Made by a program: the position numbers and the translations under genes
NCBI GenBank assembly: GCA_020848935.1
Contig: JADLHF010000265.1
Coordinates: forward strand, 1-50,276
Direction: 5' to 3'
Length of the DNA stretch: 50,276 nt
From: Acetobacteraceae bacterium
GTDB lineage: Bacteria > Pseudomonadota > Alphaproteobacteria > Acetobacterales > Acetobacteraceae
Part shown: piece by piece, positions 8,885 to 46,533 of the stretch
How positions within the stretch are numbered: the stretch's first letter is position 1
Layout of the letters: the number at the start of each line of letters is the position of its first letter
The notes under the pieces: generated by a model
The model's database searches: none
What the model was told of the DNA's origin: nothing
Seen by the model: only the letters and a program-made list of their open reading frames with translations

Positions 8885-9002
8885 GTTCTTTTTTGAAAAA
8901 AGAACCAAAAAACTTTATCAATGATGCCCTGAGGCACCGATGGTGCCAACCGATGAATAATGTCGAAAAATCTTTTTGCTTCTTTTTCTTCAGAAAAAGA
9001 AG
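8885..9002 (+). repeat. AT-rich two-hairpin element, copy 1
   Basis: 118 bp. The left hairpin (8885-8905) has arms GTTCTTTTTT and AAAAAAGAAC. The right hairpin (8979-9002) has arms CTTCTTTTTCT and AGAAAAAGAAG with a two-base loop. Each is followed inward by a conserved tail (CAAAAAACTTTAT and, on the other strand, CAAAAAGATTTTT). The spacer contains a GGCACC-GAT-GGTGCC stem (8933-8947). It lies between convergent genes, 8 bp from the ampG-like stop. It resembles a REPIN or 3'-end element. Confidence 0.85.
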
Positions 9003-9010
9003 ACCTTCCC

Positions 9011-10282
9011 TTACCTACTCTTGACGCGACCACTCAAGCCCTGCGGCATCGGTGGAAAGTGCCGCAGGATCACGAGCATCAGCACCATCGACGGCAGGGC
9101 GGAGAACATTGCCACGCTGTAGAACGCCGTCCAGCCCAGGGCCTGGGCGCCGAAGCCCGACAGGCCGCCCAGGGTATGGGACGCCATTGCCGCGATTGAC
9201 GACAACAGGGCGTATTGGGTGGCGGTGAAGCGCAGGGTGCACAGGCTGGAGAGGTAGGCGATGAAGGCGGCCATCGCCATCGCCTGCACAAAGGCTTCCA
9301 GCGCCACGGTGGTGTAGAGCAGGGCCGTATTCCCCGGGTGCAGGGTCAGCACGACGTAGAGCGACATGAAGCCCATCTGGGTGAAGCCGGTGGCGATCAG
9401 TGCCCGGCCCATGCCGAGCCAGGCGACCAGGGTGCCGCCCATGGCGTAGCCCAGCAGGGTGCAGGTGAGGGAGATCGGCCCGGTTGCCAGCGCCACCGTC
9501 GCCCGATCGAATCCGAGCGCGCGATAGAGCGGGGCGAGCATTTTCCCGGCCAGCGCCTCGTCCAGGTAGAACAGCGCGACATAGGCCAAGACCAGCCAGG
9601 CGCCGGGGCGGGCGAGGAAGTCGCGCAGCGGCTCCACGATCGCCGCGGCCACGCGCGCACCCAAGCGGGAAGGGGCAGGCGGGGTTTCGGGGGGTTCCGG
9701 CTCACCGGCGAGCAGCGTGACGCCGAGGCCGATGACGAACAGGCCGGCGACGCCCAGCAAGGCGCCGTGCCAGCCCAGCCAGCCGACACTGGCGATGACG
9801 CCGGCGCCGGAGGTCAGCATGGCGGCGCGATAGCCCAGCACATAGGCACCGAGCGCGGGACCCTGGCTGTCGGGCGGGAAGGTCTCGATGCGCCAGGCGT
9901 CGATCACGATGTCCTGGCTGGCCGACAGGAAGGCGATGCCGGCGGCGATCAGGAAGGTGGGCAACGGGTGGATGTGCGGGCTGGAGAACGCCAGGGCGGC
10001 GATGGCCAGTGCCAGGGCTGGCTGGATTGCCGCCAGCCAGCCACGCCGTCGGCCAAGGAAGGCCAGTGGCGCACGCTGGTCGAGCAGCGGGGACCAGAGG
10101 AATTTCAGCGTGTAGGCGAGGCCGATATTGGCGGTCAGCCCGATGGCGGCCAGGGAGATGCCGCCCTCGGCGAGCCACTGGGTGAGGGTGAAGCCCGAGA
10201 GCGGCAAGGGCAGGCCGGCGAAGTAGCCGAAGGCGGCCATGGTGAACAGGCGGCGGTCGCGCAGGAAGGGCGGCAATGTCAT
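9011..10282 (-). CDS. AmpG-like MFS permease
   Basis: 423 residues with about twelve membrane segments. The N-terminal GYFAGLPLPLSGFTLTQWLAEGGI and the segment AYTLKFLWSPLLDQ match the AmpG family, whose known members import anhydro-muropeptides released from peptidoglycan across the inner membrane. The IVIDAWRIETFPPDSQG loop after helix 4 is also AmpG-like. ATG 10282 (MTLPPFLRDRR) is chosen because AGGA precedes it and the protein then has normal length; the open frame extends upstream but would overlap the divergent MFS gene. The exact substrate is inferred from family only. Confidence 0.82.
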   Translation of the reverse strand: MTLPPFLRDRRLFTMAAFGYFAGLPLPLSGFTLTQWLAEGGISLAAIGLTANIGLAYTLKFLWSPLLDQRAPLAFLGRRRGWLAAIQPALALAIAALAFSSPHIHPLPTFLIAAGIAFLSASQDIVIDAWRIETFPPDSQGPALGAYVLGYRAAMLTSGAGVIASVGWLGWHGALLGVAGLFVIGLGVTLLAGEPEPPETPPAPSRLGARVAAAIVEPLRDFLARPGAWLVLAYVALFYLDEALAGKMLAPLYRALGFDRATVALATGPISLTCTLLGYAMGGTLVAWLGMGRALIATGFTQMGFMSLYVVLTLHPGNTALLYTTVALEAFVQAMAMAAFIAYLSSLCTLRFTATQYALLSSIAAMASHTLGGLSGFGAQALGWTAFYSVAMFSALPSMVLMLVILRHFPPMPQGLSGRVKSR

Positions 10283-10351
10283 GGTGCCATCCTGCCCGGT
10301 GGCGCCGCGTCGGTTCCAGGGCGATTGACCAACAGGTGGCGGAGCCGGGTC

Positions 10352-11590
10352 ATGCTGGTGGGTGAGGAATGGTGGCGGCCATTGCCGCCGGGGGTCTCGG
10401 GGGACGTGAAGCGGCTGCTGGCCGCGCGCGCCCTGCGGGCGTTCGTGGATGGGATGGTGGCGATCCTGTTGCCGATCCATCTGCATGAGCGGGGGTTTTC
10501 GCCGCTGGCAATCGGCGCATTGCTGACGGCGACCCTGGTGGGATCGGCGCTGTGCACCCTGGCGGTGGGGTGGCTGGCGCATCGGGGCAGCCGGCGTCGT
10601 TGGCTGGCCGGGGCCTGCGCGTTGATGGCCGCGACGGGGGTTGGCTTCGCGGTGGCCGGCGAGTTCTGGGTGCTGCTGGCGGTGGCGTTCCTGGGAACGC
10701 TGAACCCGAGCAGCGGGGATGTCAGCCTGTTCCTGCCGCTGGAGCATACGGCGCTGGCGCAGGCGGTGGCGCCAGTGCGGCGAACGGCGGTGTTCGCCCG
10801 GTATAGCTTGGCGGGCACGTTGGCGGGGGCCGTGGGAACACTGGCCGCATCGTGGCCGCATGCGATCGGGGCCGGGTTGGGGATGGGCGCGCAGGCCGTG
10901 ATGGCTGGGGTGTTCCTGCTGTACTCGGCGTGCGCGCTGGGGGCGTGGGCATTGTACCGGCCGCTTTCGCCGGCGGTTGAGACGCCGGTGGCGGAGGGAC
11001 CGAGGGTGGCGCTGGGGCCGTCGCGGCGGATTGTCTTTGGGCTGTCCGGGTTGTTTGCGCTGGACAGCCTGGGCAGCGGCTTCTTCGTGCAGTCGCTGCT
11101 GGCGCTGTGGCTGTACGACACCTTCGATCTGTCACTGCCGACGACGGCCGCGATCCTGTTCTGGGCCGGGCTGTGTTCGGCGGTCTCGTACCTGGCGGCG
11201 GTGCCCCTGGCAGCGCGGATCGGCTTGATCAACACGATGGTGTTCACGCACCTGCCGTCGAGCCTGATGGTGATGGCGTTGCCGTTCGCACCGAATCTCG
11301 CCGTGGCCATTGCACTGCTGCTGGCGCGCGCTGCGCTGTCGAACATGGATGTGCCGACGCGCACTTCCTATGTGATGGCAGTGGTGACGCCGGCGGAGCG
11401 ACCGGCCGCGGCCAGCATGACGGCCACGGCCAAGAGCCTGGCCGCCGCCGTCGGCCCGGCGCTGGCAGGCTGGCTGATGACGGCGTCGGCATTTGCCTGG
11501 CCGCTGCTGATTGGTGGCGCAATGAAGGCCAGCTACGATCTGTTGCTGCTGTGGCGCTTTCAGCGGGTGAAGCCGCCCGAGGAACGGTAG
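10352..11590 (+). CDS. MFS transporter
   Basis: 412 residues with about twelve hydrophobic segments and a central cytoplasmic loop near 190-215. The first helix pair includes ALRAFVDGMVAILLPIHLHERG, and a GxLADRxGRR-like loop appears as GWLAHRGSRRRW (about 71-82). It belongs to the major facilitator superfamily and is most likely an exporter of small molecules, but no substrate can be named. ATG 10352 is chosen because it gives the family's usual length; the much longer open frame to 9215 runs antisense through the AmpG-like gene. The two MFS genes are divergent, sharing a 69 bp promoter region. Confidence 0.8.
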   Translation: MLVGEEWWRPLPPGVSGDVKRLLAARALRAFVDGMVAILLPIHLHERGFSPLAIGALLTATLVGSALCTLAVGWLAHRGSRRRWLAGACALMAATGVGFAVAGEFWVLLAVAFLGTLNPSSGDVSLFLPLEHTALAQAVAPVRRTAVFARYSLAGTLAGAVGTLAASWPHAIGAGLGMGAQAVMAGVFLLYSACALGAWALYRPLSPAVETPVAEGPRVALGPSRRIVFGLSGLFALDSLGSGFFVQSLLALWLYDTFDLSLPTTAAILFWAGLCSAVSYLAAVPLAARIGLINTMVFTHLPSSLMVMALPFAPNLAVAIALLLARAALSNMDVPTRTSYVMAVVTPAERPAAASMTATAKSLAAAVGPALAGWLMTASAFAWPLLIGGAMKASYDLLLLWRFQRVKPPEER

Positions 11591-11665
11591 CACTGTCGCC
11601 GGCACGTCGCCCTCTCGCCAAGCGCGGTACAATCCGCCATGTCGGGGCTCCCGAGGAGAAGTGCG

Positions 11666-13228: not shown

Positions 13229-14760
13229 CCCGCCAGCTCCGGCACTCGCCGCAGCAACGCCGCGTGAAGCTCGCCCCGCCGTGACCACAGGTCGCGATAC
13301 CACTGCACCCGCGCCCGCACTTGATAGGCGAGCATGCGATGCTGCGCGATATCCGCCCGCCCGCGCTCGGCCAGGGCGCACGCGGCATCGGGATCGGCCA
13401 CCACCCGCATCAGCCGGTCGTACAGCCCCGTCGGCCCATCGAAGATCAGCCCGGTTTCACCGTCGTTGATGCTCTGGCCATAAACCACCGGCGACGCCAG
13501 GGCCACCGCCCGGTGCGAGGCGGCCTCCAGGTATTTCAGGTCGGATTTGCAGCGGTTGAACAGCGTATCGCGCAGCGGCATGAACGACACCTCGCAGCGC
13601 GCCAGGATGTCCAGGTAGCCGGAATAGTCGCATAGCGGGGTGAACACCTTGTGCGGCGTGGCCAGCGCGTCGAAGAAGGCCCGGTCGGCGATGACATGAA
13701 AGCGCAGCGCGCCCCCGCTGTCCGCCGCCGCGGCGTCCAGCGCCTCGACATAGCCAGGCCAGTCCTCCTCGCGGTTCAGCGCGGCAAACAGCATGGTGAC
13801 CTGGCCGGGCACGGCAAAATTCGCCGGCGCCGGCAGGCGGCGAATGGCGTTGGCAAATACCGCGACCTCCTGATTCTCCCGCCCGAACACCTCGGCCAAA
13901 GCCGGGGTGGAGGTCTGGATGGCATGCACGGCCCTGAAATTCTGGACGTCGGACCGGTATAGAATCGGAATCTGCGAGGGGTGGTCGTCGAACTCGCATA
14001 CCACCAGCCAGCCACGTACCATCAGGCTACGCAGTTTCGCCAACCCCTCGGCGCCCAGCAACGCCGGGCGATGCAGGATGAAGATGCCGGCGGCGCCGTC
14101 GAGAAATGGCACGGCCTCGAACTGGTTGGTGATATCGGCGGCAATCGTCGGCTCGGTGGACAGCGCCGCCATCGGCTCCACCACCCGAACCTGGCTGACC
14201 CCGCCAATGGGCGGCAGCATGCTGGAGAACACGCGCAGCGGCGGCACCGGAGCTGCGGTGACCCGCCAAGTCACAAGGTCCGCGCCGCCCAGCGTGAGCG
14301 CCTCGGCGTCCACGGGATGCAGGCCCGCATCCGTGAGCAGGGCATGCTGCGCCGCCTGGTTGGCCGATGCCAGCCAGGCCACCAGCACGCCCGCTTCCGC
14401 CAGGCTGCGGCCCAGTTCGTTCAGCAACTCGCCGGGCGCGGCCAGCCGTTCCACCAGCCCGGGACCCAGCAGGATGCAGTCGGCCGGCGGCAGGGGCGGC
14501 AACGGCCCGGGCTCGGGGGCCAGGCAATAGACCTCGTCCAAGATTGCGGCCGCGCGAGCGGCCAGCGCCGGATCCGCCTCGATGCCGATCAGCCGCGCCC
14601 GCGGGTTGCGGTCGCGAAACGCCGCGACCGCCCGCCCATCGCCGCAGCCGAGATGGACCACCAACCCGGCGGAAAGCGGTATCTTGTCGGCGAGGCATGG
14701 CGTTTCGGCCAAGGGGGCAGCCAGGGCCGTTCCTGGCCCATCATGGCGTGGGGGCAACAT
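13225..14760 (-). CDS. Methyltransferase-glycosyltransferase fusion protein
   Basis: 511 residues in two parts. The N-terminal 1-170 has SAM-binding features: VVHLGCGDGRAVAAF (about 34-48) with IGIEAD after strand 2. The C-terminal 185-511 resembles family 4-type glycosyltransferases, with a PPIGGVSQVRVVEP opening, CEFDDHP, and a late DLKYLEAASHRAVALASPVVYG donor-site region, where a conserved acidic residue would contact the nucleotide sugar. Proteins of this layout usually decorate cell-surface polysaccharide or glycoprotein in the cytoplasm. No other surface-polysaccharide genes are adjacent, so the acceptor is unknown. It is convergent with the HerA-like gene and divergent from the GNAT gene. 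Confidence 0.75.
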   Translation of the reverse strand: MLPPRHDGPGTALAAPLAETPCLADKIPLSAGLVVHLGCGDGRAVAAFRDRNPRARLIGIEADPALAARAAAILDEVYCLAPEPGPLPPLPPADCILLGPGLVERLAAPGELLNELGRSLAEAGVLVAWLASANQAAQHALLTDAGLHPVDAEALTLGGADLVTWRVTAAPVPPLRVFSSMLPPIGGVSQVRVVEPMAALSTEPTIAADITNQFEAVPFLDGAAGIFILHRPALLGAEGLAKLRSLMVRGWLVVCEFDDHPSQIPILYRSDVQNFRAVHAIQTSTPALAEVFGRENQEVAVFANAIRRLPAPANFAVPGQVTMLFAALNREEDWPGYVEALDAAAADSGGALRFHVIADRAFFDALATPHKVFTPLCDYSGYLDILARCEVSFMPLRDTLFNRCKSDLKYLEAASHRAVALASPVVYGQSINDGETGLIFDGPTGLYDRLMRVVADPDAACALAERGRADIAQHRMLAYQVRARVQWYRDLWSRRGELHAALLRRVPELAG

Positions 14761-15292: not shown

Positions 15293-15325
15293 GGTCGGAG
15301 TGTCTCAAGAAAGAAAAAGCAAGGT

Positions 15326-15444
15326 CTTCTTTTTCTGAAGAAAAAGAAGCAAAAAAGACTTCATCCATTGTTCATCATGGGGTGACGTTGTGCCACCACA
15401 CTCCAATTATCGAAGTTTTTTGGTTCTTTTTTTCAAAAAAGAAC
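15326..15444 (-). repeat. AT-rich two-hairpin element, copy 2
   Basis: 119 bp, reverse orientation to copy 1. Hairpin 15326-15349 has arms CTTCTTTTTCT and AGAAAAAGAAG; hairpin 15423-15444 has arms GTTCTTTTTT and AAAAAAGAAC. The spacer shares the words GTTCATCA and CACACTCCAAT with copies 5 and 6 read in the same direction. It lies between convergent genes, 33 bp after the GNAT stop and 8 bp from the mtnP stop. Confidence 0.85.
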
Positions 15445-15452
15445 ATCCTGCC

Positions 15453-16337
15453 CTATCCAGCGGCAAGCACCCGCCCCGCCACCGCATCCAGCTTCGCCAA
15501 CAGCGCCGGGTCACGCTTTTCCGGTGCGGTAATCAGCGCATGATCCAGCGCGCGATCGCAGCCGGCCGGGCAGGGCCCGCGCGCCGCACCGATCAGCGGC
15601 ACCACCGCGCGCACCAGGTCGCGGGCGTGTGCCGCGTTGTCCAGCAGCACCTTCACCACTGCCTCCACGGTGACGTGGTCGTGGTCGGGGTGCCAGCAAT
15701 CGTAGTCGGTGACCATTGCCACGGTGGCGTAGCAAAGCTCTGCCTCGCGGGCGAGCTTGGCCTCCGGCATGTTCGTCATGCCGATCACCGCGCAGCCCCA
15801 GGAGCGGTAAAGTTCGCTCTCGGCCTTGGTGGAGAATTGCGGTCCTTCCATCACCAGGTAGGTGCCGCCGCGCGTCACCGGCAGGCCAATGGCGCGCGCT
15901 GCCGCCTCCGCCGCATCGCCCAGGCGCGGGCAGACCGGATGGGCCACCGAGACATGGGCCACGCAGCCAGCGCCGAAGAAGCTCTTCTCGCGGGCGAAGC
16001 TGCGGTCGATGAACTGGTCAACGATCACAAAATGCCCCGGCGGCAACTCGGCCTTCAGGCTGCCGACCGCCGACAGCGACAGCACGTCGGTGCAGCCCAT
16101 GCGCTTCAGCGCGTCGATGTTGGCGCGGTAGTTCAGGTCCGTGGGCGACAGGGCGTGGCCGCGGCCATGGCGTGGCAGGAAGACACAGCGCGTCTCACCC
16201 AGCCAGCCCTCCAGCAACTCGTCGGAGGGGTCACCCCAGGGGGTGGCGACCGTGACCCAGCGCTGCCGCTCCAGGCCCTCGATGTCATACAGGCCGGAAC
16301 CACCGATGATGCCAATGACGGGGGTGATCTCGGGCAT
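15453..16337 (-). CDS. mtnP: S-methyl-5'-thioadenosine phosphorylase
   Basis: 294 residues of the purine nucleoside phosphorylase superfamily. The N-terminal IIGGSGLYDIEGL, the phosphate-site FLPRHGRGHALSPTDLNYRANIDALK region and the purine-site EGPQFSTKAESELYR and GMTNMPEAKLAREAELCYATVAMVTDYDCW blocks are the MTAP signature. It splits methylthioadenosine into adenine and methylthioribose-1-phosphate, feeding the methionine salvage pathway. ATG 16337 follows GGAG by 7 bases; the ATG at 16349 has no such site. It follows petC in the same direction with a 110 bp gap, so it may have its own promoter. No other salvage gene is nearby. Confidence 0.94.
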   Translation of the reverse strand: MPEITPVIGIIGGSGLYDIEGLERQRWVTVATPWGDPSDELLEGWLGETRCVFLPRHGRGHALSPTDLNYRANIDALKRMGCTDVLSLSAVGSLKAELPPGHFVIVDQFIDRSFAREKSFFGAGCVAHVSVAHPVCPRLGDAAEAAARAIGLPVTRGGTYLVMEGPQFSTKAESELYRSWGCAVIGMTNMPEAKLAREAELCYATVAMVTDYDCWHPDHDHVTVEAVVKVLLDNAAHARDLVRAVVPLIGAARGPCPAGCDRALDHALITAPEKRDPALLAKLDAVAGRVLAAG

Positions 16338-27281: not shown

Positions 27282-29992
27282 TCTTTGCCACGCCCTGGGT
27301 GCTGCTGGCGCTGGCCGCCCTGCCGCTGCTGTGGTGGCTGCTGCGCATCACGCCGCCCAGCCCGCATACCGTGGCCTTTCCCGCCATCCGCCTGCTGTTC
27401 GGCCTGACCGCGCCGGAGGAGACGCCGGCCCGCACGCCGTGGTGGCTGCTGGCGCTGCGCATGCTGGCTGCCGCCCTGGTGATCGTCGGGCTGGCGCGCC
27501 CGGTGCTGGATGCCGGCGCCTCGCTCGCCGGCGGCGGCCCGCTGGTGCTGGTGGTCGATGACGGCTGGGCGGCGGCACCGGACTGGTCGCGCCGGATGGC
27601 CGCGGCCAGCGGCGTGCTGGACCGGGCGGAGCGCGCCGGGCGCGATGTCGCCCTGCTGACCACCGCGCCGTCCGAGGCCGACGCGGCCTCCCCCGTGGCC
27701 AGCGTGGCCATGCCGGTCGCCGAACTGCGCCCCCGTCTTTCGGCGCTGCGCCCGAAGCCCTGGCCGGTGGACCGCACCGCCGCGGCGGCCGCCCTGCGCC
27801 CCTGGGCCGGGCGCGGCGGGGCGGCCTATGTCGCCGACGGCTTGGCCGGGCCGGGCTGGGACAGCTTCGCCGCGGCGCTGGCCGCCATCGGCCCGGTCAC
27901 CGTGCTGCGCGACGAGGTGCCGCCCGCCCGCCTGCTGCTGCCGCCGCGCGCCGAAGTCGACCGCCTGGTGGCACGGCTGCAACAGGCACCGCGCCCGCTG
28001 CCCGAGACAGTCGCGGTGCTGGCCCAGTCCGGCGATGCACGCACCCTGGCGCGGGTCGAGGCGACGATCCCGGCCGGCACCGGCACGGTCGAGCTGCCGA
28101 TCCTGCTGCCGCCGGAACTGCGCAACCGCCTGTCCCGGCTGGTGGTCGAGGGTCCGCCCTCGGCCGGCGGCGTGGTGCTGCTGGACGAACGCTGGCGCCG
28201 CCGCCCGGTGGGCCTGCTGGCCGGCGACGCGGTGGCCGCCGCGATCCCGCTCTCCGGCATGCTGTATTACCTGCGCCGCGCGCTGGACCCCTATGTGGAG
28301 CTGCGCGTCGGCGACCTCGCCAGCCTGCTGTCGCGCGAGATTTCCGTCCTGATCCTGGCCGACCACGTGGTGGCCGCCGGGCCCGAGGCGGCGATGTTGG
28401 CCAACTGGGTGGAGAAGGGCGGGTTGCTGCTGCGCTTCGCCGGCCCGCGTGTCGCGCAAGGGCGCGCTTCGGACATGGCCGAGCAGCCCGACGCGCTGCT
28501 GCCGGTGACGCTGCTGGCCGGCGACCGCCAGCTGGGCGGCGCCATGTCCTGGAGCCAGCCGGCCGGGCTGGACGACTTCCCACCCAACTCACCCTTCGCC
28601 GGGCTGAAGGTGCCGGCCGAGGTGCGTGTCACCCGCCAGGTCCTGGCCCAGCCCGATGCCCACCTGGCGGCGGCCACCTGGGCGCGGCTGGCCGACGGCA
28701 CTCCGTTGGTCACCCAGGCCACGCGCGGCCTGGGCCGGGTGGTGCTGTTCCACACCACCGCGAATGCCGACTGGTCGGACCTCGCCTTGTCCGGGCTGTT
28801 CGTCGATATGCTGCGCCGGCTGGTGGCGCTGTCGGCGGGAATTTCCGGCATCACCGAGGCCGACGGCACGCGGCTGGCGCCGGTGGAAACGCTGGACGGG
28901 TTCGGCGTCGCCGGCCCGCCGCAGGCCGCCGCCGCCGCCCTGACCGCCGGCGAAATCGCCACCGCCGCCGCCTCGCCGCGCCATCCGCCGGGGTTGTACG
29001 GGCCGGAAAGCGGCCGCCGCACCCTGAATCTCGGCACCCGCCACCCGCCGCTGGTCGCCGCCCCGCCAGTGCCCGGCGCGCGCGAGGAGCCGGTGGCCGG
29101 CGCCGCGCCGGAACGCCTGCTGGCACCCTGGCTGCTCGCCGCCGCCCTGGCGCTGCTGGCGATCGACCTGCTGCTGTCCCTGCGCCTGCGCGGCCTGTTC
29201 CGCGCCCGGGCGGGCGCCGGCGCCGCCGTCCTGCTGCTGGCGGTGGCCCTGCCCGCCCAGGCGCAGACCCTGCTGCCGTCCCCCCCGCCGCCGAACCCGG
29301 CGCTGGTCACCCAACTCGCCTACGTCGTCACCGGCGACGCGCAGGTGGACGGCATCGTCCGCGCCGGGCTGCTCGGCCTGTCGGACTACGTCAACCGCCG
29401 CACCAATGCCGCCCTCGGCGAGCCCGCCCCGGTGACGCCCGGCGAGACCGACCTGTCGTTCTACCCCCTGCTGTACTGGCCGATCGTGCCCGGCAGCCCG
29501 AAGCTGTCCGGCGCCGCCGTCACCGCGCTGAACGCATTCATGGCCCATGGCGGCATCATCCTGATCGACACCCGCAACGGCGGCAGCGGCGAAGGGTTCA
29601 ACGCCGGCAGCGAGGCGGCGCTGGCGCAACTGGCCCAAAACCTCGCCGTGCCGCCGCTGGCGCCGCTGACCCCGCAGCACGTGCTCGCCCGCAGCTTCTA
29701 CCTGCTTCATGATTTCCCCGGCCGCTTCGACGGCGACGATGTCTGGGTGCAGCGCGCCCAGGACCGCACCAACGACAGCGTGTCCCCGGTGATCATCGGC
29801 GGCCACGACTGGGCAGCGGCCTGGGCCATCGACGCCCAGGGCCGCAACCCCTACGCCACCCTGCCCGGCGGCGCCCGCCAACGCACCCTGGCCTACCGCT
29901 TCGGGGTGAACCTGGTGATGTACGCCCTGACCGGCAACTACAAAGGCGACCAGGTCCACATCCCGGCCATCCTGGAAAGGCTGGGACAATGA
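27278..29992 (+). CDS. BatA-type N-terminal domain plus DUF4159 membrane protein
   Basis: 904 residues. The N-terminus (VIFATPWVLLALAALPLLWWLL) with two helices is an aerotolerance-regulator (BatA) N-terminal region. A long extracytoplasmic part follows. Helices near 614-635 and a signal-like stretch near 645-665 (ending ALPAQAQ) precede a C-terminal DUF4159 domain (about 675-904). It probably sits in the inner membrane with MoxR and DUF58 partners. The function is unknown. The start is GTG 27278, overlapping DUF58. The stop TGA (29990-29992) lies inside the AT-rich repeat copy 3. Confidence 0.85.
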   Translation: MIFATPWVLLALAALPLLWWLLRITPPSPHTVAFPAIRLLFGLTAPEETPARTPWWLLALRMLAAALVIVGLARPVLDAGASLAGGGPLVLVVDDGWAAAPDWSRRMAAASGVLDRAERAGRDVALLTTAPSEADAASPVASVAMPVAELRPRLSALRPKPWPVDRTAAAAALRPWAGRGGAAYVADGLAGPGWDSFAAALAAIGPVTVLRDEVPPARLLLPPRAEVDRLVARLQQAPRPLPETVAVLAQSGDARTLARVEATIPAGTGTVELPILLPPELRNRLSRLVVEGPPSAGGVVLLDERWRRRPVGLLAGDAVAAAIPLSGMLYYLRRALDPYVELRVGDLASLLSREISVLILADHVVAAGPEAAMLANWVEKGGLLLRFAGPRVAQGRASDMAEQPDALLPVTLLAGDRQLGGAMSWSQPAGLDDFPPNSPFAGLKVPAEVRVTRQVLAQPDAHLAAATWARLADGTPLVTQATRGLGRVVLFHTTANADWSDLALSGLFVDMLRRLVALSAGISGITEADGTRLAPVETLDGFGVAGPPQAAAAALTAGEIATAAASPRHPPGLYGPESGRRTLNLGTRHPPLVAAPPVPGAREEPVAGAAPERLLAPWLLAAALALLAIDLLLSLRLRGLFRARAGAGAAVLLLAVALPAQAQTLLPSPPPPNPALVTQLAYVVTGDAQVDGIVRAGLLGLSDYVNRRTNAALGEPAPVTPGETDLSFYPLLYWPIVPGSPKLSGAAVTALNAFMAHGGIILIDTRNGGSGEGFNAGSEAALAQLAQNLAVPPLAPLTPQHVLARSFYLLHDFPGRFDGDDVWVQRAQDRTNDSVSPVIIGGHDWAAAWAIDAQGRNPYATLPGGARQRTLAYRFGVNLVMYALTGNYKGDQVHIPAILERLGQ

Positions 29993-30070
29993 ATAAAAGT
30001 TTTTTGGTTCTGTTTTTCAAAAAAGAACAGCGCTTTTTTTTGGAAAAAGAAGCAAAAACTTTTATCCATA
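29989..30070. repeat. AT-rich hairpin element, copy 3, compact inside-out form
   Basis: 82 bp. It holds a tail (ATGAATAAAAG), a hairpin with arms GTTCTGTTTTT and AAAAAAGAAC (30007-30028), AGCG, then a hairpin with arms CTTTTTTTT and AAAAAGAAG (30033-30052), and a tail (CAAAAACTTTTATCCAT). The tails point outward, whereas in other copies they point inward. It carries the stop codon of the DUF4159 gene. Confidence 0.75.
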
Positions 30071-30095
30071 AGAACAGCACGCCGGCGGGTGCGCC

Positions 30096-34412: not shown

Positions 34413-34424
34413 GAAAGGAAGGAC

Positions 34425-34542
34425 GTTCTTTTTTGAAAAAAAGAACCAAAAAACTTTTATTCATTTAGGTCTGTGAATGGCGTCCAGAGTCCACTCTTAA
34501 TGGATGAAAGTCTTTTTGCTTCTTTTTCTTCAGAAAAAGAAG
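34425..34542 (+). repeat. AT-rich two-hairpin element, copy 4
   Basis: 118 bp, same orientation as copy 1. Hairpins are at 34425-34446 (GTTCTTTTTT arms) and 34519-34542 (CTTCTTTTTCT arms). The spacer differs most from the other copies and has a GAGTCC/ACTC stem instead of GGCAC/GTGCC. It lies between two genes on the same strand, 12 bp after the creatininase stop and 64 bp before waaA. Confidence 0.85.
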
Positions 34543-34606
34543 TGCTGCCTTCCTGCTTCCATCCCCCCGCTGGATGAAGCCGCCCCGCCATGCTACCGCC
34601 GGTTCC

Positions 34607-40125: not shown

Positions 40126-41418
40126 ATGCGCGTTCTGGTGATCGGGTCGGGCGGGCGCGAGCACGCGCTGTGCTGGAAGCTGGCCGCCTCGCCGCTGCTG
40201 ACCAAACTCTGGTGCGCGCCCGGCAACCCCGGCACCGCCGCCCATGCCGAGAACGTGCCGATCGGCGCGCTGGACATCGCCGCCCTGGTCGCCTTCGCCA
40301 CCGCCCACCAGGTCGATCTCGTCGTGCCCGGCCCCGAAGCCCCGCTGGTCGCCGGCATCGCCGACGCCATGGAAGCCGCCGGCATCGCCTGCTGCGGCCC
40401 CTCCGCCGCCGCCGCCCGCCTGGAAGGCAGCAAGAGCTTCACCCACGAGATCTGCGAGGCCGCCGGCATCCCCGCCGCGCTGTGGGAACGCTTCGACGAC
40501 GCCGAGGCCGCCCGCGAATTCGTCCGCCGGCGCGGCGCGCCGATCGTGGTCAAGGCCGACGGGCTGGCCGCCGGCAAGGGCGTGGTGGTCGCCGCCAGCG
40601 AAGCCGAGGCCGAAGCCGCCATCGCCGATTTCATGGAAACCGGCAGCCTCGGCGAGGCCGGCCGCACCGTGGTGATCGAGGAATGCCTGCTGGGCGAGGA
40701 GGTCAGCGTCTTCGCCCTGTGCGACGGCACCACCGCCATCCCGCTCGGCAGCGCCCAGGACCACAAGCGCGCCGGCGACGGCGACACCGGGCCGAACACC
40801 GGCGGCATGGGCGCGTATTCCCCGCCATCCGCCCTGTCGCCCGGCCTGGAGGCGGCGGTGATGGAGCGCATCATCCGCCCCGCCCTGGCCGAGATGGCCC
40901 GCCGCGGCAGCCCGTTCCGTGGCATCCTGTTCGCCGGGCTGATGCTCACCGAGGACGGCCCCAAGCTGATCGAGTTCAACGTCCGCTTCGGCGACCCGGA
41001 ATGCCAGGTGATCCTCCCCCGCCTGATCGACGACCTGCTGCCCGCGCTCCAGGCCGCGGTGGACGGCGAACTGGCCAACATCTCGCTGCGCTTCCGCCCG
41101 GACGCGGCACTCGCCGTCGTGGTCGCCGCCCGCGGCTACCCCGGCGCCTATCGCCGCCACACCCCGATCGGCGGCGTCGCGGCGGCGTCCGCCGTGCCGG
41201 GTGCGGTGGTGTTCCACGCCGGCACCGATATGCGCGATGGCCAGCTGGTCAGCAGCGGCGGGCGGGTGCTGAGCGTGGTCGGCACCGCCGCCGGCCTGCA
41301 AGCCGCCCATGACGCCGCCTACGCCGCGGTGGATAAGCTGAACTGGCCGGATGGCTTCTGCCGGCGCGATATCGGCTGGCGCGGGTTGGGGAAGGGGAGT
41401 CACGCCGCACAAGTGTAA
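40126..41418 (+). CDS. purD: Phosphoribosylamine-glycine ligase
   Basis: 430 residues. It begins MRVLVIGSGGREHALCWKL and has the ATP-grasp features of PurD, VVKADGLAAGKGVVVA, SVFALCDG, QDHKRAGDGDTGPNTGGMGAYSP and LIEFNVRFGDPECQV. It joins glycine to phosphoribosylamine in purine synthesis, in the cytoplasm. GAAGGAGG at 40111-40118 fixes the start at 40126; the earlier start at 40090 lies in the divergent promoter region. An AT-rich repeat starts 2 bp after the stop. Confidence 0.97.
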   Translation: MRVLVIGSGGREHALCWKLAASPLLTKLWCAPGNPGTAAHAENVPIGALDIAALVAFATAHQVDLVVPGPEAPLVAGIADAMEAAGIACCGPSAAAARLEGSKSFTHEICEAAGIPAALWERFDDAEAAREFVRRRGAPIVVKADGLAAGKGVVVAASEAEAEAAIADFMETGSLGEAGRTVVIEECLLGEEVSVFALCDGTTAIPLGSAQDHKRAGDGDTGPNTGGMGAYSPPSALSPGLEAAVMERIIRPALAEMARRGSPFRGILFAGLMLTEDGPKLIEFNVRFGDPECQVILPRLIDDLLPALQAAVDGELANISLRFRPDAALAVVVAARGYPGAYRRHTPIGGVAAASAVPGAVVFHAGTDMRDGQLVSSGGRVLSVVGTAAGLQAAHDAAYAAVDKLNWPDGFCRRDIGWRGLGKGSHAAQV

Positions 41419-41420
41419 GG

Positions 41421-41539
41421 CTTCTTTTTGTGAACAAAAAGAAGCAAAAAAACTTCATTCACTGTCCATCACGTGGCACCGCCGTGCCCTCACGCTCCAA
41501 TGAATGAAAGTTTTTTGGTTCTTTTTTTCAAAAAAGAGC
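41421..41539 (-). repeat. AT-rich two-hairpin element, copy 5
   Basis: 119 bp, same orientation as copy 2. Hairpin 41421-41444 has arms CTTCTTTTTGT and ACAAAAAGAAG: relative to the CTTCTTTTTCT/AGAAAAAGAAG of other copies, a C-G pair has become G-C, a double change that keeps pairing. The second hairpin is 41518-41539. The spacer has a GGCAC-CGCC-GTGCC stem. It lies between the purD and molybdenum-hydroxylase stops. Confidence 0.85.
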
Positions 41540-41553
41540 ACCTTTCCTACACT

Positions 41554-43806
41554 TCAACCCCCCAGCACTTCCATCACCTTCGGCGGCGACATCGGCAGGC
41601 TGTAGAAACGCTTGCCCAGCGCGTCATAGACCGCGTTGCTGATCGCCGCCAGCGGCGGCACCAGCGGCGCCTCGCCGGCCCCGCGCACGCCCTGCGGATG
41701 CTTCGGATTGGGCAGCTCCAGCACCACCGGCTCGATCATCGGCACGTCCGAGCAGACCGGCATGCGGTAGTCCAGGAAGCTGGCGTTATCCAGCCGCCCC
41801 TGCTTGTCGTACAGGTATTCCTCCGACAGCGCCCAGCCGATGCCCTGCACCACGCCGCCCTGGATCTGCCCCTCGACATAATCGGGATGCAGCGCCCGGC
41901 CGACATCCTGCGCCGCGGTGTAGCGCAGCACCCGGATGATCCCCAGTTCCTCGTCCACTTCCACATCCACCACATGGGTGGCAAAGCCGGGATCGGCGCC
42001 CGTGGTGGTCAGCTGCACGCCGGCCCCGATCGGCCCGCCCATCTCGTTGGCCTTCGCTGCCAGCTCCTTCAGCGTCAGCGGCGGGAACTGCCCGGCATTG
42101 GCACCCGCCGGCCGCGCCTCGCCATCCGACCAGGCCACCGCCTCCGGCTCGATCTTCCAGATCTTCGCCGCCCGCTCGCGCAACTGCGTAATCACCTTCT
42201 CCGCCGACTGCGTCACCACCATCGCCGAGGCGAAGGTCACCCGGCTGCCGCCGGTCAGGTTGGAGAACCCGATCGAGGAGGTATCGCCGATCAGCACGGA
42301 AACCCGGCTGTGGTCGATGCCCAGCAGCTCCGCCGCGACATTGGCGATCGACGCCCGGCTGCCGCCGACATCGGGATGCCCCGTGGTCACGGTCACATTG
42401 CCGTCCTCGGTGATGTTCAGCTGGGCGCTGCTCTCGCCGCCGGCATTGTACCAGAAGCCCGAGGCCACGCCCCGTCCCCGCCGCACGCCCTTGGCCGGCG
42501 CCCGGTCCAGTGGCGCCGCATAATGCGGGTGGTTCCTGATCGCCTGGATCGTCTCCTTGAAGGTGACATCGCCGAACACCGCGCCATAGGCGGCCTTGGT
42601 GCCCTTCCCCGCGGAGTTCTTCAGGCGCAGCTCCAGCGGATCGATCCCCAGCGTCTCCGCCAGCTCATCGATCACCGTTTCGGTGGCATAGGCCCCCAGC
42701 GGCGCCCCCGGCGCGCGATAGGCCGTCACCTTCGAGCGGTTGGAGACCACGTCGTACCCCACCGACAGCACGTTGGCGATCTCGTACGGCGCGAACGAAC
42801 ACCCCACCGGCCCGCGCACCGGCCCGCCCGGCAGGCAGCCGGCCTGGATGTGGAACGTGCCCTGGGCGGCCACGATGGTGCCGTCCTTCTTCGCGCCGAT
42901 CTTCACCGTGCTCATCGAGCCCGAGGTCGGGCCGGTGGCGCGGAACACCTCGTCGCGGCTCATCACCATCTTCACCGGCCGCCCGCTCTTGCGCGACAGC
43001 AGCACGGCGATCGGTTCCAGGTAGATGACGGTCTTGGCGCCGAATCCCCCGCCGATCTCGGCCGGGATGGCGCGGATGCTGCTTTGCGGAATCCCGGTCA
43101 GCAGCGCGGTCATCGCGCGCACCATGAACTGGCCCTGGCTCGACGACCAGATCGTCACCTTTCCATCGGCCGTGCAACTCACCGTGCAGGCCTGCGGCTC
43201 GATATAGCCCTGGTGCACCGGGCGGGTCTTGAAGCTGCGCTCGATGATCACGTCGGCACTGGCGAACCCGGCCTCGATGTCGCCCAGCTTGTTGACCATC
43301 GTGCTGGCGATGTTGGACGGCTTGCCCTCGTGGCGCAGGAAATCATGCAGCAGCGGCGCATCCGGCCTGATCGCATCCTCGATCTCGATGACATGCGGCA
43401 GAACCTCGTACTCCACCTCGATCAACCGGCAAGCCTCGGCGGCGATCTCCTCGCTGATCGCGGCCACGGCGGCGACGGGGTGGCCATGGAACAGCGCCTT
43501 TTCCCGCGCCATCACGTTGCGGCTCATCCAGCGCATGTCCTGGATGCCCAGCATCACCGGCGTGTCGACCGGGAACTCCGTGATGTCCCGTGCCGTGACC
43601 ACCGCCTTCACCCCCGGCAGCGCCGCGGCCTTCGCGGTGTCGATGCCGCGGATATTGGCATGGGCATGCGGACTGCGCAGAATCTTGGCCCAGATCATGC
43701 CCGGCATGGCGTTGTCGGCCGAATACCCGGCCCGGCCCGTCACCTTGTCCGCGCCGTCGGGGCGAATGGTGCGCTGGCCAATCCATTTGTTGTCGATGGC
43801 GTTCAT
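41554..43806 (-). CDS. Molybdopterin-binding large subunit, xanthine dehydrogenase family
   Basis: 750 residues. GGGFGAKT (about 249-256) and the active-site region TAYRAPGAPLGAYATE (near 360-375) are present, with QGIGWALSEEY and VRGAGEAPLVPPLAAISNAV near the C-terminus. It binds molybdenum cofactor and, with the two smaller subunits, hydroxylates a substrate using water. The AYRAPGAP loop lacks the CO dehydrogenase form I signature (AYxCSFR), so CO is an unlikely substrate; purine, aromatic or heterocyclic substrates are possible. Its start overlaps the Fe-S gene stop (TGATG at 43804-43808). Confidence 0.88.
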   Translation of the reverse strand: MNAIDNKWIGQRTIRPDGADKVTGRAGYSADNAMPGMIWAKILRSPHAHANIRGIDTAKAAALPGVKAVVTARDITEFPVDTPVMLGIQDMRWMSRNVMAREKALFHGHPVAAVAAISEEIAAEACRLIEVEYEVLPHVIEIEDAIRPDAPLLHDFLRHEGKPSNIASTMVNKLGDIEAGFASADVIIERSFKTRPVHQGYIEPQACTVSCTADGKVTIWSSSQGQFMVRAMTALLTGIPQSSIRAIPAEIGGGFGAKTVIYLEPIAVLLSRKSGRPVKMVMSRDEVFRATGPTSGSMSTVKIGAKKDGTIVAAQGTFHIQAGCLPGGPVRGPVGCSFAPYEIANVLSVGYDVVSNRSKVTAYRAPGAPLGAYATETVIDELAETLGIDPLELRLKNSAGKGTKAAYGAVFGDVTFKETIQAIRNHPHYAAPLDRAPAKGVRRGRGVASGFWYNAGGESSAQLNITEDGNVTVTTGHPDVGGSRASIANVAAELLGIDHSRVSVLIGDTSSIGFSNLTGGSRVTFASAMVVTQSAEKVITQLRERAAKIWKIEPEAVAWSDGEARPAGANAGQFPPLTLKELAAKANEMGGPIGAGVQLTTTGADPGFATHVVDVEVDEELGIIRVLRYTAAQDVGRALHPDYVEGQIQGGVVQGIGWALSEEYLYDKQGRLDNASFLDYRMPVCSDVPMIEPVVLELPNPKHPQGVRGAGEAPLVPPLAAISNAVYDALGKRFYSLPMSPPKVMEVLGG

Positions 43807-44285
43807 CAGGCAGCCCCCCTCATGTCGGCGGCGGTTTCCAGCACGGCGCGCACGATCTTGTCATAGCCGGTGCAGCGGCACAGGTTGCCGGCCAGCCAGT
43901 AGCGCACCTCGGTCTCGCTGGGGTCGGGGTTCTGCTCCAGCAGCGACCGCGCCGCGATCAGGAAGCCCGGCGTGCAGATGCCGCATTGCAGCGCGGCCAT
44001 CTCCAGGAATTTCTGCTGCAACGGGTGCAACCGGTCGCCCTGCGCCATCCCCTCGATCGTCCCGACCTTCCGGCCGCGAATCTCCGGCGCCAGCACCAGG
44101 CAGGAACACACCAGCCGCCCATCCAGCGTGATCGAGCAGGCGCCGCAATCCCCGGTGCCGCAGCCTTCCTTGCTGCCGGTCAGCCCCAGCGTGTTGCGCA
44201 GCACGTCCAGCACCGTCTGCGCCGGCGTGCACAGGAATTCCACCTCCTCGCCATTGATCGTGGTGGTGACATGAAGCTTGCTCAT
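43806..44285 (-). CDS. (2Fe-2S) small subunit of the molybdenum hydroxylase
   Basis: 159 residues with the two-cluster layout. The plant-type ferredoxin site is C42, C47, C50 and C62 (GCGTGDCGAC then LVC), and the helical site is C101, C104, C136 and C138 (CGIC, CRC). It carries electrons between the molybdenum centre and FAD. The ATG at 44285 gives the usual MSKLHVTTTINGEEVEF start. It sits between the FAD gene (45177-44290) and the large subunit, the classical M-S-L order. The start is 4 bp after the FAD gene's stop. Confidence 0.95.
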   Translation of the reverse strand: MSKLHVTTTINGEEVEFLCTPAQTVLDVLRNTLGLTGSKEGCGTGDCGACSITLDGRLVCSCLVLAPEIRGRKVGTIEGMAQGDRLHPLQQKFLEMAALQCGICTPGFLIAARSLLEQNPDPSETEVRYWLAGNLCRCTGYDKIVRAVLETAADMRGAA

Positions 44286-44289
44286 CGTC

Positions 44290-45177
44290 TCAGTTCCTCC
44301 CGGCACGTTCGGCGGCAATCGCCACGCTGCGCCGCAGCAGCACGCCGGCGGCCCTGACGCGATAGGCGATGGTGCCGCGCTTGTCGTCGATCGGGTTGCA
44401 CGCCGCCCGGCACGCCGCCGCCGCCGCGTCCACCGCCGCATCCTCCAGCCGGCTGCCCACCAGCGCCCGGCCGGCATCCGCCACCAGCAGCACCGTCGGC
44501 GCCACCGCCCCCAGCCCCACGCGGGCCGCCGTCACCACGCCATCGGCCAGGGTCAGGTTCACCCCCACCCCCACCACGGCGATGTCCATCTCGGTGCGCG
44601 GGATCATCCGCAGATAGGCATCGCCCGACCCCGGCGGCCGCGGCGGCAGGGTGAAGCTGACCACGATCTCGCCCGGCGCCAGGTTGGTGCGGCCGGGACC
44701 TGCGGGAAACGCCTCCACCGCCAGCTGCCGCCGCCCCTTCGGCCCCTGCACCGTCACCACCGCGCCGGCGGCCACCATCGCCGGCACGCTGTCGCCGGCC
44801 GGCGAGGCATTGCACAGATTGCCGCCCGCCGAGGCCCGCCCCTGCACCTGCGTCGAGCCGATCAGGTTGATCGCCTCCAGCACGCCGGGCCACACCGTGC
44901 CGAAGCGCGGATGCTCGCCCAGCACCGCGCCGGACACGGCGGCGCCAAGGGTGAAGCTGCCATCGGCGCCCTCGGCAATATCGGTCAGCTCGCCGATGCC
45001 CTTGATGTCGATGATCACCCCCGGCCGCGCCACGCCATTGCGCATCTGCACCAGCAGGTCGGTGCCGCCGGCCAGGATGCGCGCGGCCCCCTGCGCCGCG
45101 GCATAGGCCGAAATCGCGTCGTCGAGCGTCTCGGGCGCCAGGAATCGAATATCGGTCATTGTCATTTCCGCGGTCAT
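44290..45177 (-). CDS. FAD-binding subunit of the molybdenum hydroxylase
   Basis: 295 residues. The FAD domain has RILAGGTDLLVQMRNG and a TLGAAVSGAVLGEHP segment, followed by SAGGNLCNASPAGDSVP, which is typical of subunit M. The C-terminal region ends VRAAGVLLRRSVAIAAERAG. It reduces FAD and then an unknown acceptor. GGGGAG lies 6 bases before ATG 45177; later ATGs at 45165 and 45159 (MTDIRFLAPE) are alternatives. It begins the three-gene operon. No cofactor-insertion chaperone gene is visible beside it. Confidence 0.9.
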   Translation of the reverse strand: MTAEMTMTDIRFLAPETLDDAISAYAAAQGAARILAGGTDLLVQMRNGVARPGVIIDIKGIGELTDIAEGADGSFTLGAAVSGAVLGEHPRFGTVWPGVLEAINLIGSTQVQGRASAGGNLCNASPAGDSVPAMVAAGAVVTVQGPKGRRQLAVEAFPAGPGRTNLAPGEIVVSFTLPPRPPGSGDAYLRMIPRTEMDIAVVGVGVNLTLADGVVTAARVGLGAVAPTVLLVADAGRALVGSRLEDAAVDAAAAACRAACNPIDDKRGTIAYRVRAAGVLLRRSVAIAAERAGRN

Positions 45178-45344
45178 TTCCACTCCCCGCATGTCAGCCG
45201 GTGCAGGGTTCCCCCAAGGCTACCGCGCGCGCCGGGCGCACGATAGCCCTTGTTGCACCCGCCCGGGGATCATCGAATACTGCCGCCGCCACGTGCCAGC
45301 TTCGCGCGCCCGACCCGCGCACCCACGCAGAAGGAGGACGGCCA

Positions 45345-46094
45345 ATGTCATTCTACCGGGGCATGACCTGCGAGAACGTCACCCTCACCGGCCACCAGGG
45401 CACGCCGATCACCGCCTACGTCGCCCGCCCCTCCGGCCCCGGCCCGCATCCCGGCGTGGTGCTCATCCACCACCTCCCGGGCTGGAGCGAGCTGTACATC
45501 GAAACCACCCGCCGCTTCGCCCATCACGGCTACCTCGCCATCTGCGCCAACCTTTACGAGCGCGCCGGCCCCGGCAACCCGGACGACGTCGCCGCCACCG
45601 TGCGCGCCGGCGGCGGCATCGCCGATGCCCAGATGGTCGGCGACACCGAAGCCGCGGTGAAATGGATGCGCGCCCAGCCCACCCATAACGGCAAGGTCGG
45701 CGTGTTCGGCTCCTGCTCCGGCGGCCGCCACGCGGTGATCTACGCCAGTCGGAAAGCCGACGTCGATGCCTGCGCCGACCTCTGGGGCGGCCGCGTGGTC
45801 ATGGCGCCCGACGAGCTCAACGCCAACACCCCGACAGCCCCGATCGACATGACCCGCGACCTCTGCTGCCCGCTCCTCGGCCTGTTCGGCAACGACGACC
45901 GCGCCCCCAGCCCCGAACAGGTCAACCAGCACGAGGCCGCGCTCAAGCAGCACAACAAACCCTACGAATTCCACCGCTACGACGGCGCCGGCCACGGCTT
46001 CTTCTACTGGCACCGCCCGCTCTACCGCCCGGAACAGGCGATGGACGGCTGGGCCAAGGTCTTCGCCTTCTTCGGCAAGCACCTGGCGGCATAG
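45345..46094 (+). CDS. Dienelactone hydrolase family protein
   Basis: 249 residues with the alpha/beta hydrolase fold. The catalytic nucleophile is C124 in FGSCSGG (a cysteine, as in dienelactone hydrolases), with a likely aspartate at D184 or D185 (FGNDDRAPS) and H217 in GAGHGFF. The family opens lactone or ester rings. The substrate is unknown; no aromatic-degradation genes are adjacent. AAGGAGG at 45331-45337 fixes the start. It is followed after 11 bp by a small DUF6295-like gene. Confidence 0.92.
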   Translation: MSFYRGMTCENVTLTGHQGTPITAYVARPSGPGPHPGVVLIHHLPGWSELYIETTRRFAHHGYLAICANLYERAGPGNPDDVAATVRAGGGIADAQMVGDTEAAVKWMRAQPTHNGKVGVFGSCSGGRHAVIYASRKADVDACADLWGGRVVMAPDELNANTPTAPIDMTRDLCCPLLGLFGNDDRAPSPEQVNQHEAALKQHNKPYEFHRYDGAGHGFFYWHRPLYRPEQAMDGWAKVFAFFGKHLAA

Positions 46095-46105
46095 GCGCGC
46101 CCGCC

Positions 46106-46381
46106 ATGTGCACCTCGATCATCGAGATCGCCCGCGCCGAAGGCATGGCCAAGCGCGGCGACACCTGGTTCCCCCTGGCCCAGTCCGTCGTCGCCTACGA
46201 CCACGCCCGCCACGCCCCGCTTGGCGATGTCATCACCCTGGACTTCCTCAACACCAGCCTCGGCCCCACCGCCCGCGCCGGGGTGGAGCTGACGCTGGAC
46301 TCCGCCCGCGACCTGCGCGCCGCGCTCGACCGCGCCATCGCCGCCGCCGAGTTCGAGGAGGCGGAAGTGCGGGGGGTTTGA
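46106..46381 (+). CDS. Small protein, probable DUF6295 family
   Basis: 91 residues. It starts MCTSIIEI and has GDTWFPLAQSVVAYDHARHAPLGDVITLDFLN, a pattern I associate with DUF6295, where a MCT start and an HA-P segment recur; this assignment is from memory. No catalytic residues are known. It follows the dienelactone hydrolase gene by 11 bp on the same strand, so they may be co-transcribed. The stop lies 33 bp before the AT-rich repeat copy 6. Confidence 0.6.
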   Translation: MCTSIIEIARAEGMAKRGDTWFPLAQSVVAYDHARHAPLGDVITLDFLNTSLGPTARAGVELTLDSARDLRAALDRAIAAAEFEEAEVRGV

Positions 46382-46414
46382 GTATCCAAGCAGCAAATAA
46401 GGCAAGGGGAAGCA

Positions 46415-46533
46415 GTTCTTTTTTGAAAAAAAGAACCAAAAAACTTTTATTCATTGGAGTGTGAGGCACGGGCGTGGCGCGCGATGAACAATGAACGAAA
46501 GTCTTTTTGCTTCTTTTTCTTCAGAAAAAGAAG
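46415..46533 (+). repeat. AT-rich two-hairpin element, copy 6
   Basis: 119 bp, same orientation as copy 1. Hairpins are at 46415-46436 and 46510-46533. The spacer has a GGCACG/CGTGGC stem and, read on the minus strand, shares CACACTCCAAT and TGTTCATC with copy 2. It lies 66 bp from the tRNA-Thr 3' end. Confidence 0.85.

Follow-up and report, generated by a model that had tools for sequence, protein, structure and literature searches.

The window analysed here, 50,276 nt of contig JADLHF010000265.1 from an Acetobacteraceae bacterium, raises the question of what an AT-rich repeat is doing in a high-GC bacterium. The repeat is a cassette of about 120–150 bases that occurs at hundreds of sites, directly 3' of many stop codons, and it looks like a two-way transcription stop signal. 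This placement at gene 3' ends is the strongest clue to its nature and was missed by an earlier note on this DNA.

Five full copies, which that note had described as 118–119 bp long with a hairpin at each end and conserved inward tails, were all recovered at the coordinates given, with these features. Element 1 (8874..9013, + strand, A to B; cmsearch 130 bits) is built from a left arm, an A hairpin (8885-8905), an inner stem region (8906-8978), a B hairpin (8979-9002) and a right arm, and separates two convergent genes, whose ends are at 8846 (+) and 9011 (-). Element 2 (15315..15455, - strand, A to B; cmsearch 142.6 bits), with its B hairpin at 15326-15349 and its A hairpin at 15423-15444, is likewise flanked by convergent genes, which end at 15292 (+) and 15453 (-). 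Element 3 (34414..34553, + strand, A to B; cmsearch 136.7 bits; A hairpin 34425-34446, B hairpin 34519-34542) has a creatininase-family gene (stop at 34412) 12 nt before it and a co-directional gene downstream at 34607. Element 4 (41410..41550, - strand, A to B; cmsearch 140 bits; B hairpin 41421-41444, A hairpin 41518-41539), whose B hairpin is the B2 variant CTTCTTTTTGTGAACAAAAAGAAG, lies between purD (ending at 41418, +) and a molybdopterin-binding dehydrogenase gene (ending at 41554, -). Element 5 (46404..46544, + strand, A to B; cmsearch 165.8 bits; A hairpin 46415-46436, B hairpin 46510-46533) lies between a DUF6295 gene (ending at 46381, +) and a tRNA gene (46600-46671, -). Its site is convergent because the tRNA gene lies on the - strand; the gene caller, blind to RNA genes, scored it as co-directional. 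The copy at about 29980-30070, previously taken for a compact sixth version, is not a shortened element. Its hairpins stand back to back with the tails pointing outward, in the order outward tail, A hairpin, short joint, B-like hairpin, outward tail (29980..30075, no strand; A hairpin 30007-30028; its ends score 50.1 and 34.6 bits in cmsearch). This inside-out copy overlaps the stop codon of the gene at 27278-29992 (+), and the next gene lies at 30102 (+).

Counts of the hairpin patterns in the element's own genome, compared with a reversed-pattern control, place the family far beyond chance. The A-end hairpin, with up to 2 mismatches allowed, gave 156 forward and 162 reverse matches (reversed pattern 0) and the B-end hairpin 340/325 (control 0/0), per-strand counts that are not to be summed since the end hairpins are near-palindromic and most sites match on both strands. 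Among loci retrieved by hairpin or BLAST, which form a biased and overlapping set, the paired ends were A+B in 57/57, with 117–119 bp the commonest lengths and 19 single ends besides. The inverted relation of the two ends that had been proposed is upheld. Removal of identical and edge-cut copies left 50, and model R1 was built on the 41 of these that measure 113-121 bp. As a second sample, we used the window and nine contig stretches not picked for the element, taken from the longest contigs among those listed (448 kb, about a tenth of the genome). It holds 48 paired elements (42 A+B, 6 B+B and no A+A) and 20 single ends. The paired elements span 79-173 bp between their outer hairpin edges, and 29/48 fall at 117-120 bp, in line with the earlier expectation of many dispersed copies of one length. 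Full-length matches that were checked have a GC content of 0.31-0.52, compared with 0.71 for the window. Elements cover 2.2% of the bases in the 448-kb sample and contain 178 of its 199 A/T runs of at least 6. An Rfam search of the window at gathering score returned no family match to the element, only a tRNA, and a search of open-licence PMC text yielded no recognised description of this repeat, six of its sequence strings remaining unmatched there.

The element extends beyond 118 bp into a left arm rich in purines and a right arm rich in pyrimidines; in many cases the purine arm starts at the stop codon of the gene (TAAGGAAGG, TAGGAAGG). The end hairpins and A/T tracts are nearly invariant, while the centre diverges yet tends to keep pairing, and at one site shared by two species the central stem is wholly different. 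The GGCAC/GTGCC stem previously reported for the spacer is clear in only some of the copies. In 52 of 77 copies the centre folds with z below -2, and the two halves of a centre pair better with each other than when exchanged (permutations as good: 57/5000 in the own genome, 0/5000 in congeners). Pairing of the outer arms, by comparison, was no better within copies than between copies (2710 and 3696 of 5000), and RNAalifold recovered the two end hairpins only. A cloverleaf with a covarying outer stem was rejected, as covariation in 41 copies was not above shuffles (score 145/500, paired cells 116/500). Also rejected was a DNA uptake sequence, a short motif that is frequent in coding DNA as well: AAAAAGAACCAA occurs 47 times in elements and never outside, AAAAAGAAGCAA 54 times in elements and 3 times outside, and the motif is absent from called genes.

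Location was assessed against genes called by our own codon-usage script rather than by an annotation pipeline; the script places starts only roughly and does not see RNA genes. Across the 448 kb, gaps of at least 100 bp hold an element or single end in 22/29 convergent, 40/90 co-directional and 0/34 divergent cases (convergent against divergent, Fisher p = 3e-11; convergent against co-directional, p = 0.005), which leaves 7/29 large convergent gaps without one. None of the 57 divergent gaps in the sample holds an element, and random placement by gap length would put 9.2 of 46 elements in divergent gaps (P(0) = 5e-5). A called gene 3' end lies within 60 nt of 44/48 paired elements, and at co-directional sites the element hugs the upstream stop codon. 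Stop codons beside elements are TAG or TAA in 41/57 cases, compared with 96/333 elsewhere (p = 1e-9). Independent PGAP annotation of Pseudoroseomonas cervicalis plasmid copies places one 10 nt past a stop codon and 3-4 nt before the end of a convergent gene, and a second between co-directional genes.

Both the sequence and the folds show a stem with a long U-rich tract after it. On either strand, a polymerase leaving the centre would first transcribe the variable stem-loop. Next would come about 20 nt rich in U (GUCUUUUUGCUUCUUUUUCUUC in one direction, AAGUUUUUUGGUUCUUUUUUUC in the opposite one), and after them the A-rich side of an end hairpin. Together, the stem and the U-rich stretch would release polymerase coming in from both directions, which fits the occurrence of the element in either orientation and its bias towards convergent genes. 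Our favoured reading, which we hold to be probable though far from certain, is a dispersed intrinsic terminator that works in both directions, departs from the canonical build, makes up transcription-unit 3' ends and spreads by copying. We rest it on the location at gene ends in the sample and on the plasmids, the concentration of A/T runs, the pairing of the centres, the TAG/TAA excess, and two observations given below, the half element of MG945182 and the element at the purD junction. Termination, any role of the end hairpins, and the copying with its direction are inferences. The element lacks the build of a canonical intrinsic terminator, in which a GC-rich stem is directly followed by a T-tract, and its inner stem base is AT-rich, unlike textbook terminators. 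A strict rule of GC-stem plus T-tract fires at 0/87 element-bearing gene ends and at 3/301 others; with stems of any composition the T-tract rule fires at 5/87 and 3/301. A terminator consensus scan of window positions 1-20000 and 30000-49999 gave 8 hits against 8.9 in shuffles and 4 against 5.8, touching a single element, at an end hairpin, and detecting no central stem. Counting further against a terminator are the 7/29 large convergent gaps without an element, its frequent absence from the same site in relatives within the genus, and the cloverleaf and outer-arm results above; moreover, any insertion that harms promoters would likewise be kept out of divergent gaps.

The same transcripts could instead be stabilised or processed, with the hairpins blocking 3'-5' exonucleases or RNase III cutting a long stem, and with termination occurring elsewhere or by Rho. 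Three hairpins beside stop codons would suit such a signal, as would the minimum-energy folds of 2/4 copies, in which the A-rich and U-rich strands pair as one long rod. However, a 3'-UTR signal needs neither the symmetry nor the convergent preference (22/29 against 40/90 co-directional), and we regard it as quite unlikely. Less probable still, and very unlikely in our view, is a site acting at the DNA level between converging genes, by cruciform formation or by binding gyrase or a nucleoid protein. The AT inverted repeats, near-perfect and fixed in sequence, accord with it, and constant hairpins suggest recognition, but it does not require a central stem that keeps pairing as its sequence changes, and co-directional copies hug the upstream stop codon.

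The repeat is present in related Acetobacteraceae: all 9/9 genus genomes searched carry it, while presence in the family is patchy (50/200 genomes) and copy number within genus g17 runs from 0 to 183/203 among 13 genomes listed. All rows of the order-level search came from one family, so absence outside it rests on the purD loci, 78/80 of which lack a match to the repeat, and on searches of plasmids and phages. The repeat of genus g68 (G192) has the same hairpin type and the CAAAAAACTTT tail; an inverted partner tail occurs within 300 nt in 0/30 of its loci, making it a relative and not the same paired element. Half an element, an exact match of 39 nt, is carried by the Microviridae record MG945182; read along the annotated features, it comes after a GC-rich stem in 3/3 cases seen, of 7 in the record.

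Orthologous sites reveal both gain and turnover of elements, and the same site is often element-free in relatives within the genus. G007 carries an element at the purD junction, whereas stop codons abut in G005 and G008 (the neighbouring gene was matched by eye for G001 and G004, and by flank alignment for G003, G005 and G008). Close species pairs of the G002/G003/G005/G008 kind share 93-96% identity at purD. By parsimony, a whole element was gained at one orthologous junction, which lends weight to the mobile repeat suggested earlier. New copies would appear at gene ends via some copying process, and insertions before genes would be lost to selection. Two further ideas were discarded: wholesale donation of the G007 centre by another cassette (its exact sequence occurs in 2 of the 252 loci covered, both copies of the same contig) and a replication-strand bias in G069 (20 exact matches, all '+' among the matches listed; 33 forward and 33 reverse in a fuller search).

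Presence and absence at orthologous sites, the range in copy number, the patchy distribution, and inverted terminal repeats on a unit of under about 200 bp could also describe a MITE-like or otherwise mobile palindrome with no role in the cell, whose restriction to gene ends would merely reflect the purging of insertions elsewhere; PMC3049150 argues likewise about pneumococcal repeats. Even decay would be expected of such a selfish copy, but the hairpins and tracts are near-invariant and the diverging centre tends to keep pairing. The high occupancy of large convergent gaps (22/29) also speaks against it. At two filled/empty junctions, one clean and the other loose, no target-site duplication is clear by eye. 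In the 448-kb sample no facing ends surround a gene, as they would in an autonomous parent with the same ends, and within 5 kb there is one facing pair of single ends, 189 bp apart. We judge a functionless repeat unlikely, though not negligible. A bolder version of the terminator reading, tentative and with the odds against it, would make the element a mobile 3'-end cassette that installs a stop codon together with a two-way terminator, has become the chief source of U-tract terminators for this 71% GC genome, and swaps its central stem and end modules while the flanks stay fixed. If so, termination sites would turn over between species by copy-and-exchange and not by point mutation.

The repeat had also been assigned the REPIN plan. 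REPINs and REPs are defined by a RAYT transposase and a GTAG/CGTC tag. Two REP-like palindromes with conserved tails in inverted orientation are indeed present, and the elements resemble REP-RAYT systems in being extragenic, dispersed and numerous. A RAYT (TnpA-REP) transposase could act in trans, and the Y1 transposase domain PF01797 matches 7 of 28 relatives, including congeners G002, G003 and G008. It has 0 matches in the own genome (assembly 95.2% complete; control positive in 5/14 known genomes), however, and is absent from the high-copy genomes G004, G006, G028, G050, G118 and G351. In the 41-copy alignment, read by eye, no hairpin is directly flanked by GTAG or CGTC, and the tag is absent from A1; according to PMC3733652, Acetobacteraceae lack CGTC repeats. 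The plan stands and the RAYT and tag do not, and with AT-rich hairpins tied to gene 3' ends as further differences, we reject a RAYT-driven REPIN as highly improbable.

The family bears on the ways in which transcription ends in high-GC bacteria and on the origin of terminators. One repeat, at gene ends and in hundreds of copies, holds most of the long A/T runs of the genome sample. If the element terminates, transcription-unit ends in this lineage would be supplied by a spreading element, and the filled, empty and centre-swapped versions that exist at the same junctions form a natural comparison set.

Bidirectional intrinsic terminators have an A-tract, stem and U-tract that are symmetrical for both strands, and they lie at gene ends. 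The element shares this symmetry and location. Unlike them, it has invariant flanking AT hairpins, is copied genome-wide, and has an AT-rich stem base missed by simple detectors. The closest precedent is the pneumococcal SPRITE (PMC3049150). By description, both are interspersed, AT-rich relative to their own genome and under 200 bp, with a stem and then a long U-rich tract; both lie near 3' ends and are most strongly enriched between convergent genes, and neither has a known mobilising enzyme. SPRITE is described there as 30 copies in one pneumococcal genome with one 18-bp duplex, whereas the present element, from a different phylum, has hundreds of copies, two end hairpins, a variable central stem and purine/pyrimidine arms.

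The five full copies that the earlier note placed at 8885–9002, 15326–15444, 34425–34542, 41421–41539 and 46415–46533 were recovered with exactly these coordinates and hairpins. The sixth, described there as compact (about 29980–30070), turned out to be a different arrangement, with the hairpins back to back and the tails pointing outward. In the full element, the A-end hairpin reads GTTCTTTTTTGAAAAAA(A)GAAC and the B-end hairpin CTTCTTTTTCTTCAGAAAAAGAAG, and both ends carry the inward tail C-A(5-6)-(G)ACTT. Aligning 41 full copies revealed a variable middle between two almost invariant end hairpins. Beyond the hairpins, a purine-rich left arm (AAGGAAGG) and a pyrimidine-rich right arm (CCTTCCTT) extend for about 10–15 nt and then fade.

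The A hairpin matches 156 and 162 times on the two strands of its own genome and the B hairpin 340 and 325 times, with 0 matches to the reversed-pattern controls; as the hairpins are near-palindromic, most sites are counted on both strands. All nine genomes of the genus that we searched carry the element, with 175 to 340 forward matches each. Across the family, 50 of 200 genomes, from 31 of 102 genera, have the B hairpin with at most 3 mismatches. For the longer A-hairpin-plus-tail pattern, these figures are 70 of 299 and 25 of 64, all of the listed matches coming from the same family. Controls for these surveys gave 0, apart from a few genomes with one match each. Within one genus (g17), counts range from 0 to 183/203. 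Among 80 named purD neighbourhoods across Alphaproteobacteria, the covariance model matched only two, both congeneric MAG loci (L128, L129). Two annotated Pseudoroseomonas cervicalis plasmids match over 75–80% of the query length; five further plasmid records match 14–23% of it and have a chance-like appearance.

Gene ends are the preferred location. Our 448-kb sample of the own genome, made up of the window and nine contig stretches, contains 48 paired elements plus 20 single ends. Among convergent gaps, 24 of 56 hold an element or single end (22 of the 29 that measure 100 bp or more); the figures are 40 of 276 for co-directional gaps (40 of the 90 that long) and 0 of 57 for divergent gaps (0 of the 34 that long). 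One paired element sits over a questionable ORF of 82 codons and another lies at a stretch edge. For 44 of the 48 paired elements, a called gene 3′ end lies within 60 nt, and where a gene end is this close to an element (57 cases) the hairpin begins 0–40 nt past the stop. TAG or TAA stops are found at 41 of these 57 ends versus 96 of 333 elsewhere, because the purine arm often starts with the stop itself; this is so for purD of two congeners (G006 and G007). PGAP annotation of the P. cervicalis plasmids agrees, placing one copy between convergent and one between co-directional genes.

Although elements make up only 2.2% of the sample, they hold 359 of its 442 A/T runs that are 5 nt or longer and 178 of the 199 that are 6 or longer. 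Position, symmetry, the convergent-pair preference and these tracts favour termination, and on such sequence features the element likely terminates transcription. Speaking against it, textbook detectors do not single out the elements. A strict terminator rule recognised 0 of 87 element-bearing gene ends versus 3 of 301 others, and allowing any stem composition 5 of 87 versus 3 of 301. A terminator scan of two parts of the window, 20 kb each, gave no excess; it met only one element, at an end hairpin. Termination, if any, would operate via a long AT-based stem with a double U-tract, or be aided by the invariant end hairpins. Also in favour of termination is the unverified Microviridae genome MG945182 from cattle blood, where a 39-nt exact half element (5906–5944) follows a GC-rich stem when read in the orientation shared by all 3 features annotated in that stretch (the record has 7). 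Either the genome belongs to a phage infecting a host from the Acetobacteraceae, or its assembly is chimeric or contaminated.

When everything between the end hairpins was folded, A/T tracts included, 52 of 77 centres folded better than dinucleotide shuffles (z below −2, mean −3.3). Beyond the A/T tracts, a centre's own halves outpair exchanged ones, permutations being as good in 57 of 5000 cases in the own genome and 0 of 5000 in congeners, where some centres form inverted repeats longer than 15 bp that are perfect or nearly so. A full cloverleaf is opposed by three results: outer arms pair no better with their own partners than with exchanged ones (2710 and 3696 of 5000 permutations as good), the 45-pair structure does not rise above column shuffles, and RNAalifold retains the end hairpins alone.

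Orthologous sites in the genus reveal gain and turnover. At one of them, G005 and G007 share flanks (86 and 91% identical) and end hairpins, whereas their centres are unrelated and each self-complementary. At another, the B hairpin has a six-T form in G002, G003 and G008 versus the CTTCTTTTTGTTCACAAAAAGAAG form in G006. The differing centres could possibly reflect exchange between copies via the shared ends. At the purD junction, G007 carries a whole element; in G005 and G008, whose flanks match, the two stop codons abut, and by eye the same seems true of G001 and G004. G002 (L125) and G003 (L123) hold another palindrome, CTAGAGGGATGGCCGACC..GGTCGGCCATCCCTCTAG, whose bounding CTAG motifs suggest an insertion there. 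Elements are present in G000 and G006, with different neighbour genes. As G002, G003, G005 and G008 form one group (93–96%) with G007 next (86–89%), and G001 and G004 fall outside (71–79% in the purD stretches, up to 87% in one neighbouring stretch), the simplest reading of these alignments would be a gain in the G007 line.

By eye, the nine loci at a phosphorylase gene 3′ end comprise full elements in G000, G002 and G005, and single ends in G003 (L233), G008 (L234) and G007 (L238), the remainder replaced by sequence with GGTGGCGGGTCCGCTTCGCGACCCGCCCTA-like palindromes. G006 has a GC-rich double-hairpin repeat, and in G001 and G004 an A-type end is fused to a GC-type one. A creatininase gene has the element in G000 alone among the loci compared (by eye).

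Other repeats also came to light. The GC-rich type at gene ends (CCAGGGCTCTGCCCTGGACC ... CAGGGGCCAAGCCCCTGGACC) was seen in G006 (L237), G005 (L244), and G001 and G004 (L239 and L240, one end fused to an A-type AT end), and in the own genome at C191:48984 and C100:16865; allowing at most 3 mismatches, its first motif matches ten times in 448 kb. Two convergent gaps of the own genome that lack the AT element (C191:4425–4631 and C11:31793–32014) have a further repeat in common around TTGACCCATGARG.ATGGGTCAACGCGGG (by eye). In G192, of genus g68, a related repeat (L256–L285) combines the hairpin GCCGCTTTTTTGWAAAAAAGCGGC with the same CAAAAAACTTT tail (29/37 matches), and a conserved CGCCCC.AACGTTTT stretch lies ahead of it; an inverted partner tail within 300 nt was found in 0 of 30 loci.

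Hundreds of identical 22–24 nt hairpins and the gain of a whole element imply that copying is needed. No Y1 transposase was found in the own genome, 7 of 28 relatives have one without its presence following copy number, and the 448-kb sample revealed no larger element bounded by these ends. The element resembles the REPIN plan proposed earlier in its overall layout but fails on the two features tested, the RAYT and the tag. We file the element among terminator-like small interspersed repeats, as a new variant. Nearest in behaviour is the Streptococcus pneumoniae repeat SPRITE (PMC3049150), which is AT-rich, terminator-like and interspersed and is likewise over-represented between convergent genes and close to 3′ ends.
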